Source: Streptantibioticus cattleyicolor NRRL 8057 = DSM 46488 (GTDB lineage Bacteria > Actinomycetota > Actinomycetes > Streptomycetales > Streptomycetaceae). From it: a stretch of 64,000 nt of DNA. How positions within the stretch are numbered: the stretch's first letter is position 1; every line of letters begins with the position of its first letter. The position numbers and the translations under genes were made by a program. Positions 50,776 to 58,982 of this stretch are shown here, in pieces. The notes under the pieces are model-generated. The model searched no databases. It was given only the letters and a program-made list of their open reading frames with translations, and had not been told where the DNA came from. The stretch is from assembly GCF_000240165.1 (NCBI RefSeq), contig NC_017585.1, forward strand, positions 930,001 to 994,000. The letters are read 5' to 3'.

Positions 50776-51204
50776 TCACAGCAGCGCGACGGTCTGCTCC
50801 TGGGCGTAGCTGAAGCCGTCCTCGTCGAAGTACCAGACGTCGACGCGGACGTGCTCGCCGTGGGAGAAGTGCGAACCGGTGGCGGCGCGCAGGTTCACCG
50901 TGGCGTTGTGGTCGTTGTAGTCGCACACGAGCTTGGCGGACTTGATGGTGCCGGCCGCGATGGACCGGTCGGTGTCGGGCTGGTCGACGGCGGTGGCGTT
51001 GGCGACGAGCTGGTGGTGCATGCCCGGGTCGCAGGAGTAGGTGACGTTCACCTGGAGGCCGGGCGAGTGCAGCGCGACCTTCTTGATGGTGATGACGTTG
51101 GCCTTGGCGGCGGCCGGACCGGCGGTGGCCAGCGCGCCGGCGCCGACGAGCAGGGCCACGGCGGCGGTGCCGGCGACACGACGTCCGAGACGGGACGACT
51201 TCAT
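50776..51204 (-). CDS. Small secreted hypothetical protein
   Basis: 142 residues with a Sec signal (RRVAGTAAVALLVGAGALATAGPAAA, cleavage near residue 34). The mature ~105 residues look like a beta-sandwich (VNVTYSCDPGMHHQLVANATAV; LVCDYNDHNATVNLRAATG; VRVDVWYFDEDGFS) with two cysteines placed to form one disulfide. A Streptomyces-type secreted protein of unknown function. ATG 51204 follows AAGGAA; the longer frame is rejected because it precedes this site. Confidence 0.78.
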   Translation of the reverse strand: MKSSRLGRRVAGTAAVALLVGAGALATAGPAAAKANVITIKKVALHSPGLQVNVTYSCDPGMHHQLVANATAVDQPDTDRSIAAGTIKSAKLVCDYNDHNATVNLRAATGSHFSHGEHVRVDVWYFDEDGFSYAQEQTVALL

Positions 51205-51385
51205 GAGGTTCCTTCCCCCCTGCGCCGCCGCCCCTGGTCGGTGAGGCGCGGCGGAGGGCCACGGCTCGGCGGGCGACGACGACAGCAGTTGTGTTCGGTC
51301 GAGCGGCATCCTATGGGCAGGTGGGGGCAGTTGACGCGGCGTGGTGCGTGAGGTGCGCCTCGTCGGTGCGCCGGACCGCGTACGG

Positions 51386-51440: not shown

Positions 51441-54400
51441 TCAGTTCACGGTGTAGCTGTACGGCAGCGCCGCCAGCACCGAACCGGTGATGCCCACCTG
51501 GCTGTTGGCGGTGGCCACCCCGCCCGGGGCGGTCACCAGGTAGAGCACGCCGTGCACGGTGGTCCCCTTGCGGCCGGTCGGGGTGATGGTCACCTCGACA
51601 TCGCCGGTGGCACCCGGCTTGACCTCGACCGGAGCGGTCGCGGGGGCCTGGCCGCGCACCCCGGCGGCGAACGGGTCACCGGTGGCGGAGGTCAGCGCCG
51701 GGTCGAACGCCAGGGTGTGCGCGCTCGCGCTGATGGTGGAGGAGCCCGCGGGCGCCCCGCCGGCCGGGAACGGCCCGATCTGCTGCACGAAGGTGCTCCA
51801 GTACCCGGAGACCACCGGCTGCGCCGCGCTCCCCGCGTCGGTGACCGCCGACACCGTGGAGCCGGCCTGCGCCGACTTCAGGTCGCCGAAGAGGTCCGGC
51901 GAGCTGGTGGTGGCGCTCAGTTCGAGCTGCGCCGGGGTCGTGGAGGCCGCCGCCGCGGTGAGCCGGTCGGTGCCCGGCGGCACCAGGAACGACGGCACCG
52001 TGGAGGTCGGGGTGAGCGGCAGCCCGACGGTGGCCGAGGCGCCCTGCGGCAGCAGCGCCAGCTCCACCCGGGTGTTCAGCCGGCCCTCGGCGTGCACCCG
52101 CTGCACCGCCGCCGTGTTGTTGGTGTACCGCACCCGCACCGTGACCGGCTTGCCCGCGGCCAGCTTGGTACCGGCGCCGTGCGGCAGCGCCGCGGCGCTC
52201 GCCCGGTCCTGGTCGAAGCCGATGGCGCCGGTGAACGGCTGGCTCAGTTCCGCGCCGCTGACCGGGTTGGCCACCACGAGCACGTAACGCCAGCGGCCCG
52301 GCGCCGGGTTGAGCGTGGTCACCGAGACGCCGCGGCCGGTGCCGACCGGGTTGCCGTTGGTGTCCAGCACCGCGTTGGATTCCGCGTCCGCCGGGGTGCC
52401 GTCCGGGGCCACCAGCACGCCCTGCATCAGCAGGTTCGGGTCCTTGGCCACGGTCAGCCCGACCCGCAGGTCACGCTTGCCGCGGGGGACGTCGAAGGCG
52501 TAGGTGAAGGTCTGCGCGGGGGAGTAGCTGCGGGCGTTGCCGCCGGTGATCGTTCCGGTGAAGCGGCCGGTGCCGCCCGCCACCGGGACCAGGCTGCGCA
52601 GGATCACCGGCACACTGGTGGTCCGTCCGCCGGAGCCGGCCACGGTCACCGACTCGCCGGTGTCACCGCCGGCCGCCGGGGTGGTCAGCCGCACCCGCAG
52701 CTTGGTGGTGGCCCCGGGCGCCAGGGTGACCGTGCGCGGGGTGACCGAACCGGCCGCCACCGCCCGCTGCGTCGCGGTGTCCAGCAGCACCGGACCGGTG
52801 TAACCGGCGCTGCCGGCCGGGGTGTAGAGCACCGCCGTCCAGCTGCCCGCCACCGGGTGCGGCACGTCCACGATGCCGAAGTTGGCCGAGACCGCGCCGC
52901 CCTGCGGACGGGTGTTGGTCTCGAAGCGGCCCGACGGGTCGAGCAGCGTCATCCGCACCACGGGGGTCACCGTGTTGTTCCCCGACTTCTGCGGCGCGCC
53001 CTTCCAGGCGATCGACGCGGCCAGCCGGTCGGCGCCGCGCGGCACCGTGAACCTCACCTGACGCGCCACCCACGGCGCCCCGTTGGTGGCGTACGGGAAC
53101 GTGTCGGAGGACGAGGAGTCGAGCGCCACCGTCTGCCGGGAGTCCGCCAGCGGGGCGAACGTACGGGTGGCGGCGGTCACCTTCTGCGCGGTCCGGCCGG
53201 TGTTGGTCACCGGGATGTCGGCGGTGTGCGCCGAGCCGGGGGTACCGGTGATGTCCAGCTGGCCGGAGGAGACCACCAGGCTGCGGCTGTCCTTGGCGCC
53301 GGAACCGCCGGCGTAACCCCGGGCGGCCTCCACCGCGGCGCGCACGTCCAGCAGACCCGCGCCCTGCTCCTGGGCGGGGACGCCCAGGTCGTGCGCGGTG
53401 CCGGTGAGGAACTTCTTGACCAGCGCCGGGGCCGGCGAGGCACCGTGGTGGGTGTCCCGGTACGCCTGGATCACCAGCGCCGCCGCGCCCGCGGTCATCG
53501 GGGCGGCCTGGCTGGTGCCGCCGAACGGCTGGATGGGGCTGGCGCCGCCCGCGTAGTTGGTGCACTCGGTGTACTTGGTCAGGTCCGGGGTGCACAGCGC
53601 CCAGTCGGATTCGCCGGGCGCCACCAGGTCCACGGTGCGACCACCCTGGGTGATGCCGGCCGAGGAGAGCGCGGAGATGTTGTCGTCCGCCCAGGTGCCG
53701 TTGGAGAACCTGGTCGCCGCGTAACCGGTCTGCGCGTACAGCTGGGAGTCGGTCGAGGCGCCGGCCGAGATCACGTTCGGGTCGGTGGACGGCGTGCCGA
53801 TGGTGCCGTTGATCCCCGCGTCACCGCTGGAGACGGCCACCGTCACACCCGCCGCGACCGCCTGGTCGTTGAAGAGCGAGATGGTGTCGTGGGCACCGCT
53901 GTCCGGGGTGACGTTGCTGCCGAACGACTCGTTGAGCACGTCGACGTGGGCCACCGAGACCGCGTAGTCGATGGACTGCAGGATGGCCGAGTTGGGCAGC
54001 AGCTCACCGCCGGCCTTCAGCGCCACCAGCGAGGCGCCCGGGGCGATTCCGCGCACCCGGATGGTGCACCCCTTGGGCAGCGGGTGCGAGGGGTTGACGA
54101 ACTGCGACAGGTCGTACGACTGCCGGCCCTGCGCGATCACCGCGGAGGCGTCGCCGAACGCCTCGGCGGCGCCGGTCGGGGCGGCCGTGCCGTCACCGGA
54201 GAAGTCCTGGTAGTCCACGACCGCGTGGGAGCCGTCGGGGCGGATGAAGTCCGGGTTGTCCGGGTCGAGTCCGTCGGCGATGTAGGCGACCTTGACGCCC
54301 TTGCCGTCGGCCAGGCTCGCCGCGCCGGGGTGGCCGGCGGTGGCCTCCACGTGGGTGGAGTAGAGCGCCTCCGGCTCCAGCAGCGGCTTCGACGGGTCCT

Positions 54401-54914
54401 TGGGGCAGATCGCGTCCGGGGTCCGCGTGCTGTCCGGGCCGCCCTTGACGGCGTGCGCGGACGCCTTGGGGCCGCCCGGCCGCGTCCCGGTGCCGCCGGC
54501 CGCCGAGCCGCCGTCGGGCGGGGTCACCGGCACCTTGGTGTCCGGCACCACCGCGGCCACCGCCGGGTCGGCGGCGAGCGCGGCCCGCAACGCGGGCGGA
54601 ACGGTGGCCGAGAACGCGTTCCCGACCACGAAACTCTTGACGTGGGTACCGCCCTGGGCCCGCACCCTCGCCAGCAGCGGGGCCTGCGCCACCGCCGTGC
54701 GCTCCTTGCGGGCCTTGAGGTGTCCCGGGTCCGCGGGGGCCGCGGGTATCTGGTCCTTGAGCACCACGATCACCGGGGTCGCCGCCCCACCGCTCGCCGG
54801 ATCCGGCGGGGTGGGTACGGTTGCGGCGCCCGCGCCGGCCCCCGAGGTGAGGACCAACGCCGCCGCGGCGACCGCGACGGCGGCGGTCAACGGTGGTTTT
54901 CGCCAGCCGGTCAT
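51441..54914 (-). CDS. Very large exported subtilisin-fold (S8-like) protein with altered catalytic residues
   Basis: 1157 residues. A Sec signal (LTAAVAVAAAALVLTSG) is followed by an I9-like inhibitor/propeptide region, a subtilisin-type domain (about 200-510) and ~640 residues of beta-rich extracellular domains (at least three, including a fibronectin/Ig-like repeat). The serine is clear (GGTSQAAPMTAG, Ser468). The usual Asp and His motifs are not: the IDTG-like position reads YIADGLD (Asp214, shifted by one), and the HGTH region reads EAFGDASAV (Glu251, Asp255). SSGDAG (Asp365) replaces the Asn oxyanion motif. ATG 54914 follows GAGGGAAG. Confidence 0.9.
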   Translation of the reverse strand: MTGWRKPPLTAAVAVAAAALVLTSGAGAGAATVPTPPDPASGGAATPVIVVLKDQIPAAPADPGHLKARKERTAVAQAPLLARVRAQGGTHVKSFVVGNAFSATVPPALRAALAADPAVAAVVPDTKVPVTPPDGGSAAGGTGTRPGGPKASAHAVKGGPDSTRTPDAICPKDPSKPLLEPEALYSTHVEATAGHPGAASLADGKGVKVAYIADGLDPDNPDFIRPDGSHAVVDYQDFSGDGTAAPTGAAEAFGDASAVIAQGRQSYDLSQFVNPSHPLPKGCTIRVRGIAPGASLVALKAGGELLPNSAILQSIDYAVSVAHVDVLNESFGSNVTPDSGAHDTISLFNDQAVAAGVTVAVSSGDAGINGTIGTPSTDPNVISAGASTDSQLYAQTGYAATRFSNGTWADDNISALSSAGITQGGRTVDLVAPGESDWALCTPDLTKYTECTNYAGGASPIQPFGGTSQAAPMTAGAAALVIQAYRDTHHGASPAPALVKKFLTGTAHDLGVPAQEQGAGLLDVRAAVEAARGYAGGSGAKDSRSLVVSSGQLDITGTPGSAHTADIPVTNTGRTAQKVTAATRTFAPLADSRQTVALDSSSSDTFPYATNGAPWVARQVRFTVPRGADRLAASIAWKGAPQKSGNNTVTPVVRMTLLDPSGRFETNTRPQGGAVSANFGIVDVPHPVAGSWTAVLYTPAGSAGYTGPVLLDTATQRAVAAGSVTPRTVTLAPGATTKLRVRLTTPAAGGDTGESVTVAGSGGRTTSVPVILRSLVPVAGGTGRFTGTITGGNARSYSPAQTFTYAFDVPRGKRDLRVGLTVAKDPNLLMQGVLVAPDGTPADAESNAVLDTNGNPVGTGRGVSVTTLNPAPGRWRYVLVVANPVSGAELSQPFTGAIGFDQDRASAAALPHGAGTKLAAGKPVTVRVRYTNNTAAVQRVHAEGRLNTRVELALLPQGASATVGLPLTPTSTVPSFLVPPGTDRLTAAAASTTPAQLELSATTSSPDLFGDLKSAQAGSTVSAVTDAGSAAQPVVSGYWSTFVQQIGPFPAGGAPAGSSTISASAHTLAFDPALTSATGDPFAAGVRGQAPATAPVEVKPGATGDVEVTITPTGRKGTTVHGVLYLVTAPGGVATANSQVGITGSVLAALPYSYTVN

Positions 54915-55087
54915 GCACTTCCCTCTCGTCTGACACGACATCAGGAAGGCGTCCCGCATCAGGGGTCCCGGGTCGGACGCATGCCTGCTTCTGGAACGCC
55001 CGTCCCGACAAGCTCACGCATTCCAACGCATGAACCGTGTCCACGACAAGAGGAAACAGGCCCTGGTTCGGCCTGTTGTCGGTAAAG

Positions 55088-55180: not shown

Positions 55181-56080
55181 TCAGCTCTCCGCGAGCAGAC
55201 CCTCCCGCAGCTTGCCCAACGTCCGCGACAGCAGCCGCGAGATGTGCATCTGCGAGATGCCCAGCCGCTCGCCGATCTGCTTCTGCGTCATGTCGGCGCT
55301 GAACCGCATGGCCAGGATGGCGCGTTCACGCTCCGGCAACTCGGCGACGAGCGGGGCGAGCGCGGTGAGGTTCTCCACGCCCTCCAGCGCCGGGTCCTCG
55401 GCGCCGAGGCGGTCGGCCCACGCGGTGCCGTCGTCCTCGTCGTCGCCCGCCTGCGCGTCGATCGAGGAGGCGGTGTAGGCGTTGGCGGCGACCTGCGCCT
55501 CGACCACCTCTTCCTCGCCGATGTCCAGCCGCGCCGCCAGCTCCGCGGTGGTCGGGGCGCGGTCGAGCTCGGCGGCGAGCGCGTCGGTCGCCTTGGCCAG
55601 GTCGATCCGCAGCTCCTGCAGGCGCCGCGGCACCCGCACCGACCAACTGGTGTCCCGGAAGAACCTCTTCATCTCCCCGATGATCGTCGGCAGCGCGAAG
55701 GTGACGAACTCCACACCGTAGTCGGGGTCGAACCGGTCCACCGCCTTGATCAGACCGATCGTGCCCACCTGGAGGATGTCCTCCATCTGCTCGGCCCGGT
55801 TGCCGAAGCGCTTGGCGGCGAAACGCACCAGAGCCATGTTGAGTTCGATGAGCGTGTTGCGTACGTACTGGTACTCCTCGGTGCCCTCCTCCAGCACCGC
55901 CAGCCGCGCGAACATCACCTTGGAGATCTGGCGCACCTCGGCCGCGCTCGCGGCGCCGTCCAGCAGCGCGGCGTCCAGCCGTTCGTCGAACCCCTGCTTC
56001 CCGGCTGCCTCCAGCCCCGCGTCATCCGCCTCGTCCCCGCCGACCGGCGTGGTGACCTCTTCCGTGAGCTGGACCGACAT
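55181..56080 (-). CDS. RNA polymerase sigma factor, SigB/SigF/SigG family
   Basis: 299 residues. Region 2 (EDILQVGTIGLIKAVDRFDPDYGVEFVTFALPTIIGEMKRFFRD) and region 4 (MTQKQIGERLGISQMHISRLLSRTLGKLREG) are typical of the stress/sporulation sigma group of Streptomyces. These direct RNA polymerase to osmotic-stress or developmental promoters and are held in check by an anti-sigma factor with a HATPase fold. Directly upstream, on the same strand, lies a sensor phosphatase with such a domain, so the pair may form a partner-switching module. Which of the several paralogues this is cannot be decided from one window. Confidence 0.94.
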   Translation of the reverse strand: MSVQLTEEVTTPVGGDEADDAGLEAAGKQGFDERLDAALLDGAASAAEVRQISKVMFARLAVLEEGTEEYQYVRNTLIELNMALVRFAAKRFGNRAEQMEDILQVGTIGLIKAVDRFDPDYGVEFVTFALPTIIGEMKRFFRDTSWSVRVPRRLQELRIDLAKATDALAAELDRAPTTAELAARLDIGEEEVVEAQVAANAYTASSIDAQAGDDEDDGTAWADRLGAEDPALEGVENLTALAPLVAELPERERAILAMRFSADMTQKQIGERLGISQMHISRLLSRTLGKLREGLLAES

Positions 56081-56216: not shown

Positions 56217-58982
56217 TCAGGGCAGCGCCTGCTCGGTCCAGATCACCTTGCCGTCCGGGGTGTAACGGGTGCCCCAGCGCTCGGTGAGCTGGGCGACGAG
56301 GAAGAGCCCGCGCCCGCCCTCGTCCTCCGCGGCGGCGTACCGCAGATGCGGGGAGGTGCTGCTGCTGTCGGAGACCTCGCAGATCAACGCGCGGTCCAGC
56401 AACAGCCGTACCCGGACCGGCGCGGAGGCGTAGCGGATCGCGTTGGTGATCAGCTCGCTGAGCACCAGCTCGGTGGTGAACACCATCTCGTCCAGCCCCC
56501 ACCGGGCGAGCTGGTCGGCGACGTCGGCCCGGGCCTGCGCCACCGCGGACGGCTCGAACGGCAACTCCCACTCGGCCACCCGGTCACGGCCGAGCAGCCG
56601 GGTACGGGCCACCAGCAGCGCCACGTCGTCGGTCTGCCCGGCCGGTGGCAGCACGTCGAGCACGGCGTCGCAGATCTCCGCCGGGGTGCGGCCGGGACGG
56701 GCCAGCGCCCGGGCGAGGATCCGGACACCGTCGTCGGCGCCCCCCTGGCGGTCCACCACCAGGCCGTCGGTGTAGAGCACCAGGCTGCTGCCCTCGGCCG
56801 GCCGCACCCGGGCGGCCTCGTACGGCAGCCCGCTGATGCTGCCCAGCCCCAGCGGCGGCCCCACCGGCACGGCCGGGAAGTCCACCGTGCCGTCGGGTGC
56901 CACCACCGCCGGCGGCGGATGGCCGGCCCGGGCCACGTCGCACGTCCCGGACACCGGGTCGTAGATGGCGTACAGACAGGTGGCGCCGGTGACGTCCTCC
57001 TCCCCGTCCGGGGTGGCCGCCTCCTGGTCGATGTGGCTGACCAGCTCGTCGAGGTGGCCCAGGACCTCCTCCGGCGGCAGGTCGAGCGCGGAGAAGTTCT
57101 GCACCGCGGTACGCAGCCGGCCCATCGTGGCCGCCGCGTGCAGTCCGTGGCCCACCACGTCCCCCACCACCAGCGCCACCCGGGCCCCGGACAGCGGGAT
57201 CAGGTCGTACCAGTCGCCGCCCACCCCGGCCTGGGCGGGCAGGTAGCGGTGGTCGATGTCGAGCGCGCTCTGCTCGGGCAGCCCGCGCGGCAGCAGGCTG
57301 TGCTGGAGCGCCACCGCCATCGCGTGCTCGCGGGTGAAACGGCGGGCGTTGTCGACGCAGACCGCGGCCCGCGCCGCCAACTCCTCGGCCAGCGACAGGT
57401 CGTCGCCCTCGAACGGGCCGCCCTCCGGACCGCGCCAGAAGTTGACGATCCCCAACAGCAGCCCGCGGGCCTTCAACGGCACGGTGATCAGCGACCGCAG
57501 CCCGTAGTCCAGCACCTCCTGGGTGCGTTCCAGATCCTGGCTGCGCCACCCGGCCGCCTCGCGCAGATCCGGTACGAGCACGGCGCGTCCGCTGACGAAG
57601 CCGGTGGCCTGCGGGGTCGGCGCGGCGAAGGTGACCACCTCGCCCGCCCGGTACAGCGGGTGGTCGTCGCCGGATCCGCCGACCGCCACCCGGCGCAGCC
57701 GGGCCGAGCCGGTGTTCGCCAGCACGCTCGGCTCGTCACCGCCGAGCACCGCCTCGGCCAGGTCCACGGTGGCGAACCGGGCGAACCTGCGGGTGGCCAC
57801 CTCGGCCAGCTCCTCGGCGGTGCGCCGGACGTCGAGGGTGGTGCCGATGGCGATGCTCGCGTCGTAGAGCTGCTTGAGCCGGCTGCGGGCGCCCTCCGCC
57901 TTGCCGGCGAGCTGGCGCAGCTCGGTGGAGTCGCGCAGGGTGGCGACGCTGCCGGGCGGGCCGCCGCCGCGGTCGGTGGGCCGGTTGTTCACCGCCAGCA
58001 ACCGGTCGCCGACGGCCACCACCGCGTCGCTGACCACCCGGTGGGCCGCCAGCAGCTCGGCCATCTGCGCGTCCAGGCCCAGGTCGGTGACGTGGCGCCC
58101 CTCGGCGTCCTCGGGCAGCGAGAGCAGCCGGCGCGCCTCGTCGTTGGCGAGCAGCACCCGGTCGTCGCCGGAGACGATCAGGACGCCCTCGCGGACCGCG
58201 TGGAGCACGGCGTCGTGGTGTTCGTACATCCGGGTCATCTCGGCCGGGCCCAGCCCGTGCGTCTGCCGCCGCAGCCGGCGGCTGACCAGCGCCGTGCTGC
58301 CCATCGCCAACGCCAGGGCGCCGGCGCCGGCCCCCAGGATCACCGGGAGCTGCCGGTTGAAGGCGCTGCTCACCCGGCTCACCTTGAGCCCGGCCGCCAC
58401 CATGCCGACCACCGCGCCGTGGCTGTCCTCCACCGGTACGACCGCCTGGGTCTCCTCGCCGAGCGGGCCGTGGACGACCTCGATGGTGACGGCACCGTGC
58501 AGTGACGGGCCGATGGTGCCGACGAAGTGCTTGCCGATCTCGGACGGGAGCGGGTGGGTGTAGCGGATGCCCTGCCGGTTCATCACCACGATGAAGTCGA
58601 GCCCGCCCTGGCGGCGGGCGGCCTCGGTACGCGGCTGGAGCACCGCCGGCGGGTCCGGACCGCGCATCGCGGCCACCAGTCCGGGCGCGTGCGCGAACGA
58701 CTCGGCCGCCGCCAGCGACCGGCCGCGCGCCCCGTCGAACCGGTCGTTGCGCGCCTGGACCAGCAAGGTGACCACCGCCGCCACCACCAGCAGCAGCACG
58801 ATCAGCACCTGGAGCAGGAACATCTGCCCGGCGACGCTGCGGGCACTCGTCATCGGCCGCGGGCGCCGCCCCGGCACCGCCCACGACCCGCCTCGCCCTG
58901 GCCGCCGCCCGTCACCACCGTGTGGCGCCCCGGCGGCCGGGCGGTCCGTGTGCCAGGGGAAGCGGCCCCGGAACCAGGCCAT
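56217..58982 (-). CDS. Multidomain sensor SpoIIE-type phosphatase with PAS, GAF and HATPase domains
   Basis: 921 residues. Two membrane spans (about 53-75 and 213-232) frame an extracytoplasmic sensor of the single-Cache/PDC type. A PAS domain (about 255-350) and a GAF domain (about 365-535) follow. The PP2C/SpoIIE phosphatase (about 580-780) has GGDWYDLI, VGDVVGHG and TDGLV metal ligands. A C-terminal HATPase anti-sigma-like domain (about 790-921) has the N-box ELITNAIRYA. The layout matches the OsaC/RsbU-like regulators that control SigB-type factors. It is upstream of, and in line with, the sigma factor gene. The start is ATG 58982; ATG 58853 is an alternative. Confidence 0.9.
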   Translation of the reverse strand: MAWFRGRFPWHTDRPAAGAPHGGDGRRPGRGGSWAVPGRRPRPMTSARSVAGQMFLLQVLIVLLLVVAAVVTLLVQARNDRFDGARGRSLAAAESFAHAPGLVAAMRGPDPPAVLQPRTEAARRQGGLDFIVVMNRQGIRYTHPLPSEIGKHFVGTIGPSLHGAVTIEVVHGPLGEETQAVVPVEDSHGAVVGMVAAGLKVSRVSSAFNRQLPVILGAGAGALALAMGSTALVSRRLRRQTHGLGPAEMTRMYEHHDAVLHAVREGVLIVSGDDRVLLANDEARRLLSLPEDAEGRHVTDLGLDAQMAELLAAHRVVSDAVVAVGDRLLAVNNRPTDRGGGPPGSVATLRDSTELRQLAGKAEGARSRLKQLYDASIAIGTTLDVRRTAEELAEVATRRFARFATVDLAEAVLGGDEPSVLANTGSARLRRVAVGGSGDDHPLYRAGEVVTFAAPTPQATGFVSGRAVLVPDLREAAGWRSQDLERTQEVLDYGLRSLITVPLKARGLLLGIVNFWRGPEGGPFEGDDLSLAEELAARAAVCVDNARRFTREHAMAVALQHSLLPRGLPEQSALDIDHRYLPAQAGVGGDWYDLIPLSGARVALVVGDVVGHGLHAAATMGRLRTAVQNFSALDLPPEEVLGHLDELVSHIDQEAATPDGEEDVTGATCLYAIYDPVSGTCDVARAGHPPPAVVAPDGTVDFPAVPVGPPLGLGSISGLPYEAARVRPAEGSSLVLYTDGLVVDRQGGADDGVRILARALARPGRTPAEICDAVLDVLPPAGQTDDVALLVARTRLLGRDRVAEWELPFEPSAVAQARADVADQLARWGLDEMVFTTELVLSELITNAIRYASAPVRVRLLLDRALICEVSDSSSTSPHLRYAAAEDEGGRGLFLVAQLTERWGTRYTPDGKVIWTEQALP

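Follow-up and report, generated by a model that had tools for sequence, protein, structure and literature searches.

A subtilisin-fold protein of Streptantibioticus cattleyicolor that appears to have adopted a sedolisin-type active site

A stretch of 64,000 nucleotides from the soil bacterium Streptantibioticus cattleyicolor NRRL 8057 = DSM 46488 (NC_017585.1, positions 930,001 to 994,000; the window hereafter) contains on its minus strand an open frame at window positions 51441–54959, which encodes a protein of 1172 residues called P0001 here. Judged from its sequence, P0001 appears to have swapped the catalytic residues of a subtilisin (MEROPS family S8) for the acid-type set of a sedolisin (family S53), and its relatives keep this set. 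S8 and S53 enzymes have a common fold; their triads, propeptides, and calcium sites set them apart. We consider P0001 to be probably a secreted, propeptide-activated serine-carboxyl peptidase, predicted to be active, in which an S8 fold and an I9 propeptide would be combined with the mechanism of the sedolisins. Residue numbers run from the upstream ATG at 54959 and exceed those of an earlier sequence-only reading by 15; the residues were located where that reading had placed them. All window coordinates refer to the minus strand.

Active-site residues and their conservation

Across 34 catalytic domains of the family, with pairwise identities of 34–98%, four residues are invariant: Glu266 (54162–54164), Asp270 (54150–54152), Asp380 (53820–53822), and Ser483 (53511–53513). 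Glu266 and Asp270 form a Glu-x3-Asp pair (EAFGD in P0001, EWYGD in the relative L044), while Asp380 lies in the motif SSGD and Ser483 in GGTSQAAP. The sequence-only reading had singled out the same residues as Glu251, Asp255, Asp365, and Ser468, with Glu and Asp four apart and the serine motif GTSQAAP intact, and its sedolisin-like interpretation is now strongly supported by conservation, by published sedolisin and kumamolisin segments, and by the secondary structure of a predicted model. Exactly three of the 38 acidic residues of the domain are invariant in the family, namely Glu266, Asp270, and Asp380, and the chance of drawing one named triple out of 38 is 1 in 8436.

In passages of a 2024 structural survey (PMC11593635), the respective segments are EWDLD 80–84, SSGD 167–170, and TS 286–287 in sedolisin, and EVELD 78–82, AAGD 161–164, and TS 277–278 in kumamolisin. 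Their counterparts in P0001 are EAFGD, SSGD, and TS, by which Glu266 corresponds to sedolisin Glu80 and kumamolisin Glu78, Asp270 to Asp84 and Asp82, and Asp380 to Asp170 and Asp164. In the same survey, serine-carboxyl peptidases are set apart from subtilases mainly by the Glu-x3-Asp helix and further by the change from Asn to Asp.

Apart from the serine, the residues typical of S8 are gone. Position 228 (54276–54278), where the family alignment and S8 controls locate the catalytic Asp of S8, is Ala in P0001, as had been read from the sequence, and Ala in 32 and Gly in two of the 34 members. The helix that carries EAFGD in P0001 contains no His, again in line with the first reading, and none is conserved there in the family; the oxyanion Asn is replaced by Asp380 in all 34 sequences. 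As a control, the S8 domains taken from viral contigs all (58 of 58) carry Asp at position 228 and Asn at position 380, and Asn likewise occupies 380 in all 36 S8 rows of a mixed alignment. The residue before GTS, Gly480 in P0001, is Gly in 12 of 13 family rows and 12 of 15 S53 rows; the 36 S8 rows have Ser in 26 cases and Gly in none. Motifs guided the choice of control rows: His and Ser motifs for S8, with Asp as an added requirement for the first 11 (from 31 loci tried); Glu-x3-Asp, SxG[DE], and Ser motifs for S53, which 32 of 33 loci satisfied; and HGT motifs for finding and filtering the viral-contig domains, which accounts for their 58/58 His. Because the rows were picked by motif, the S8 Asn and the viral S8 Asp are the only unselected control counts.

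In the proposed mechanism, Ser483 would attack the substrate and Glu266 would act as the general base, oriented by Asp270 one turn further along the helix they share, while a protonated Asp380 would stabilise the oxyanion. From such a serine-carboxyl site, an activity peak at acidic pH would be expected. We infer that the side chains converge, that the site is catalytic with an acid pH optimum, and that the role of the enzyme would be extracellular protein breakdown.

The relatives originate from eight loci on GTDB contigs, seven with Actinomycetota titles and one metagenome bin (L015) titled Candidatus Melainabacteria, and from whole-genome searches. In the latter, relatives of P0001 occurred in 15 of 41 related genomes, matches in 10 of 118 class-level genomes (four of them weak S8 matches only), and matches in 7 of 119 phylum-level genomes, where long matches were confined to the own genome and one other. 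Two peptide patterns searched in viral contigs retrieved 30 stretches, none of them a relative. The window's own gene (L005 and L017), L011, two fragments (L037 and L039), and four ordinary S8 proteins with His (L045–L048) were left out of the 34 rows, and L189, found later, was not added. The frame of L011, from Streptacidiphilus sp. 4-A2, is disrupted with the catalytic domain affected and represents either a pseudogene or a sequencing error. A subgroup of six members (L030, L033, L034, L035, L036, and L038) carries NEEAG for NESFG and PSYDAG for SSGDAG, with all four proposed catalytic residues kept; five of these are additional copies, each in a genome with a standard copy as well.

A subtilisin body in sequence profiles and predicted structure

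The S8 profile PF00082 matched all 34 members and covers positions 1–287 of 288 in P0001, whereas the three S53 domains of the same genome match positions 70–257 only. The catalytic domain also ends in the S8 manner, with a signature of the QGAGLLD type. The propeptide (residues 63–144; 54528–54773) is assigned to the S8-type inhibitor I9 fold. PF05922 matched 28 of the 34 members with E ≤ 0.01, P0001 itself at 18.9 bits falling under the cut-off of 21.2. The propeptide model, in turn, matched POIA1 with a Z of 9.1 and subtilisin propeptides with a Z of about 7–8; unrelated ferredoxin-like folds also appear among these matches, one at rank 2. S53-type proteins coexist with P0001 in one genome, and the S53 propeptide profile Pro-kuma_activ was found in two of the three. 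One S53-type protein of this genome, L007 (C2:371950–372630), is recognised by its motifs GETALD, SSGD, and GGTSEASP and has no Pro-kuma_activ match.

By profile comparison the family is nearer to S8 than to S53, with hhalign scores of 220 over 261 columns against S8 (a set of 11 rows) and 101 over 207 columns against S53, while S8 and S53 score 56 against each other; HMMER likewise sets the family closer to S8. On most measures, the family is also nearer to S53 than these S8 proteins are. The median HMMER score with the S53 profile was 24.2 bits for the family (n = 34), 12.1 for the relatives' S8 proteins (n = 11), and 14.4 for the viral-contig S8 domains (n = 80). On the 32 S53 rows, which contain two proteins twice (L006/L050 and L008/L051), the family profile reached a median of 15.0 and the S8 profile 6.8, with the family profile higher in 24 rows. 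Part of this proximity arises because the shared active-site residues contribute to the scores. The best 60 of 192 PDB profile matches are S8 by name. NCBIfam matches of P0001 lie far below their cut-offs; other members matched a mycosin model (E down to 1.7e-18, in 14 of 34) as well as SGO_0316, CspBA, and others, and judged by model names, none of the matched models describes a Glu/Asp/Asp/Ser site.

The sequence-only reading had called for a structure prediction, and the AlphaFold model of the catalytic domain (residues 195–560; 53280–54377) adopted a subtilisin fold with a predicted local distance difference test (pLDDT) of 84.2 and a predicted template modelling score (pTM) of 0.90; PF00082 and structural matches agree with this assignment. 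Its alignment held 65 sequences, eight from the family and 57 of the 58 non-redundant viral-contig S8 domains (L143 was left out), with S53 purposely excluded. An earlier model of propeptide and catalytic domain from eight sequences reached a pLDDT of 39.7 and a pTM of 0.26, and its propeptide part alone was usable. In the good model, the catalytic helix spans residues 266–275 (model residues 72–81) and opens at Glu266, so that Glu and Asp lie four apart on one helix as in S53 enzymes and are accompanied by the Ser. The serine helix (model residues 288–309) opens at Thr482-Ser483, making the proposed nucleophile its second residue, and the strand preceding Asp380 ends three residues before it. 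The regions of Glu266, Ser483, and Asp380 are what we take to be the places of subtilisin His64, Ser221, and Asn155. Structural searches with the model, whose alignment was mostly S8, retrieved subtilisins at Z about 37 and a root-mean-square deviation of 1.7–1.8 over about 264 residues; the best 50 neighbours are S8 by name with no S53 chain among them, which does not exclude S53.

Alternative readings and the descent of the site

An active acid peptidase is favoured because the four invariant residues stand in sedolisin order and the propeptide is kept. Several observations weigh against it. Pro-kuma_activ was found in none of the 34 members at E ≤ 0.01. The S53 C-terminal calcium-site motif is of the GYDxxTGxGxP type, and this signature, visible in the printed S53 rows, is absent from P0001 as inspected by eye in this protein only. 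The top score on S53 rows belongs to the S8 profile (37.0 versus 31.5 for the family profile, HMMER, same settings). Six of the 34 members carry Tyr for Gly379, beside the proposed oxyanion Asp, together with Glu for Ser345 of an NxS tripeptide, a change that may alter or abolish their activity. The S8-like fold of the model was partly fed in, since its alignment consisted of 57 S8 domains and eight family members. Finally, every S8 row of this alignment (57 of 57) has its catalytic His aligned with Gly269, three residues after Glu266. The placement of Glu266 at the His site therefore depends on the S53 motif and on where the helix begins in the model; for the same reason, this helix start was not simply copied from the alignment.

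The strongest rival, although unlikely, is a catalytically dead subtilase homologue resembling the pseudoprotease CspC, whose old active site binds a ligand or partner. The loss of the classical S8 Asp and His would fit such a protein, as would the weak resemblance of 7 of the 34 members to the NCBIfam model CspC_non_triad (best E 0.00027; P0001 14.8 bits versus a cut-off of 675). CspC-type pseudoproteases, as we understand them, likewise have an S8 fold without the S8 triad, but the P0001 family differs in holding a complete and invariant alternative catalytic set. A dead homologue is disfavoured because this S53 set alone is selectively invariant: the Ser and its three acids are fixed while the other 35 acidic residues vary. 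The retained propeptide also speaks against it, though pseudoproteases may retain theirs. The sequence-only reading had left the choice between a bridge from S8 to S53 and a dead binding protein; the mixed features and, in part, the profile scores fit the former, the selective invariance disfavours the latter, and the trees described below leave the bridge undecided.

It is very improbable that P0001 is an S8 enzyme with another rearranged triad, built on an acid at position 229 or a His elsewhere. Residue 229, in the A-D/E-G segment beside the old Asp, is acidic in 26 of 34 members, but the remaining eight have A, G, V, or M there. The sole invariant His is His504, 21 residues past Ser483, but it sits just beyond the far end of the serine helix, some 30 Å from Ser483 by a helix-rise estimate; the search for a His that completes an ordinary triad found none. 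Least credible of all is an ordinary S53 member labelled S8 only because PF00082 spans both families, as the S53 catalytic residues and the PF00082 matches of S53 domains might suggest, since the nearly complete PF00082 match, the higher hhalign score to S8, the missing S53 propeptide, and the S8-type C-terminus all contradict it.

P0001 and its relatives are best read as probable S8-bodied enzymes with a sedolisin-type site. With sedolisins (sedolisin 1GA6, kumamolisin 1GT9), they share the Glu-x3-Asp pair on one helix, the oxyanion Asp of SSGD, the Ser of GTS, and mostly the Gly before it, but they differ in propeptide, in the C-terminus (P0001), and in profile proximity. With MEROPS S8 (subtilisin BPN', Vpr, Tk-SP, site-1 protease), they share the whole-domain match, the fold, the I9 propeptide, and the C-terminal signature, but the catalytic Asp, the His, and the oxyanion Asn are all replaced.

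Trees on 234–244 columns without the active site split S53 from the rest (support 100), with the family in a basal position on the S8 side. In the first tree without active-site columns, the family stood between S53 and all 31 S8 rows with a Shimodaira–Hasegawa-like approximate likelihood ratio (SH-aLRT) support of 96; after the addition of 16 S8 rows and the removal of 11 of the 20 viral rows, this split disappeared in the tree without the active-site columns, and including these columns brought it back (95). In the approximately unbiased (AU) test, 'all S8 one side' had the best likelihood of three topologies and was not rejected (p 0.72), and neither were 'family with 13 nearest S8' (p 0.60) and 'family with L046 and L191' (p 0.68). 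These sequence-based trees do not decide between a shared origin and an independent switch of the active site. Tentatively, the family may be a third clan SB lineage off the S8–S53 stem, an S8 chassis with an intact S53 site, in which case the Glu-Asp-Ser site would have arisen once and propeptide and calcium site changed later. Of equal interest is the companion reading that the Glu-x3-Asp pair and the oxyanion Asp were invented twice on the same fold.

Among the titles and abstract beginnings searched, no description of an S8-propeptide enzyme with a Glu-x3-Asp/Asp/Ser site was found. Siezen, Renckens and Boekhorst 2007 (Proteins 67:681) reportedly list subtilases with different catalytic residues, one subset being sedolisin-like; this subset is said to have its Asp on a strand rather than on the helix of the Glu, which would differ from the P0001 family, and the survey may have counted proteins of the P0001 type. 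A CDD entry 'Peptidases_S53_like' presumably exists, and a literature search by this name gave no match.

Gene layout and meaning for the family

The full length of P0001 is matched at 100% over all 1172 residues on the S. cattleyicolor megaplasmid pSCAT (NC_016113.1). The ATG at 54914 is better supported by the sequence as the start than the one at 54959, because it is preceded by GAGAGGGA and marks the point from which the N-terminus is conserved in the nearest relatives, which would give the exported multidomain protein of 1157 residues proposed at the outset. From this start, the order is a Sec-type signal peptide recognised by eye (residues 16–46; 54822–54914), the I9-type propeptide, the catalytic domain, and a C-terminal region of 612 residues (51441–53279). 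The latter is aligned in most long relatives, perhaps consists of Ig/Fn3-like repeats (all Pfam matches in P0001 are below cut-off), and would bind substrate.

Directly downstream on the same strand, a small, apparently secreted protein is encoded at 50776–51309, which is absent beside the 10 relatives' loci checked. Upstream lie a SigB/SigF-like sigma factor (55181–56080) and a large SpoIIE-like phosphatase (56217–58982), both named by eye and on the minus strand. No neighbour gene was kept across the 10 relatives' loci at E 1e-8, at least three of these loci having short flanks.

A Pfam S8 match alone conceals proteins of this type, which calls for caution in annotation. The P0001 family separates features, with S8 propeptide and body on one side and an S53 active site on the other, and thereby offers a natural way to test which of the parts are required by the acid mechanism, as well as a candidate source of acid-active secreted peptidases. 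P0001 may show a route from one enzyme type to its sister type, between subtilisin and sedolisin.
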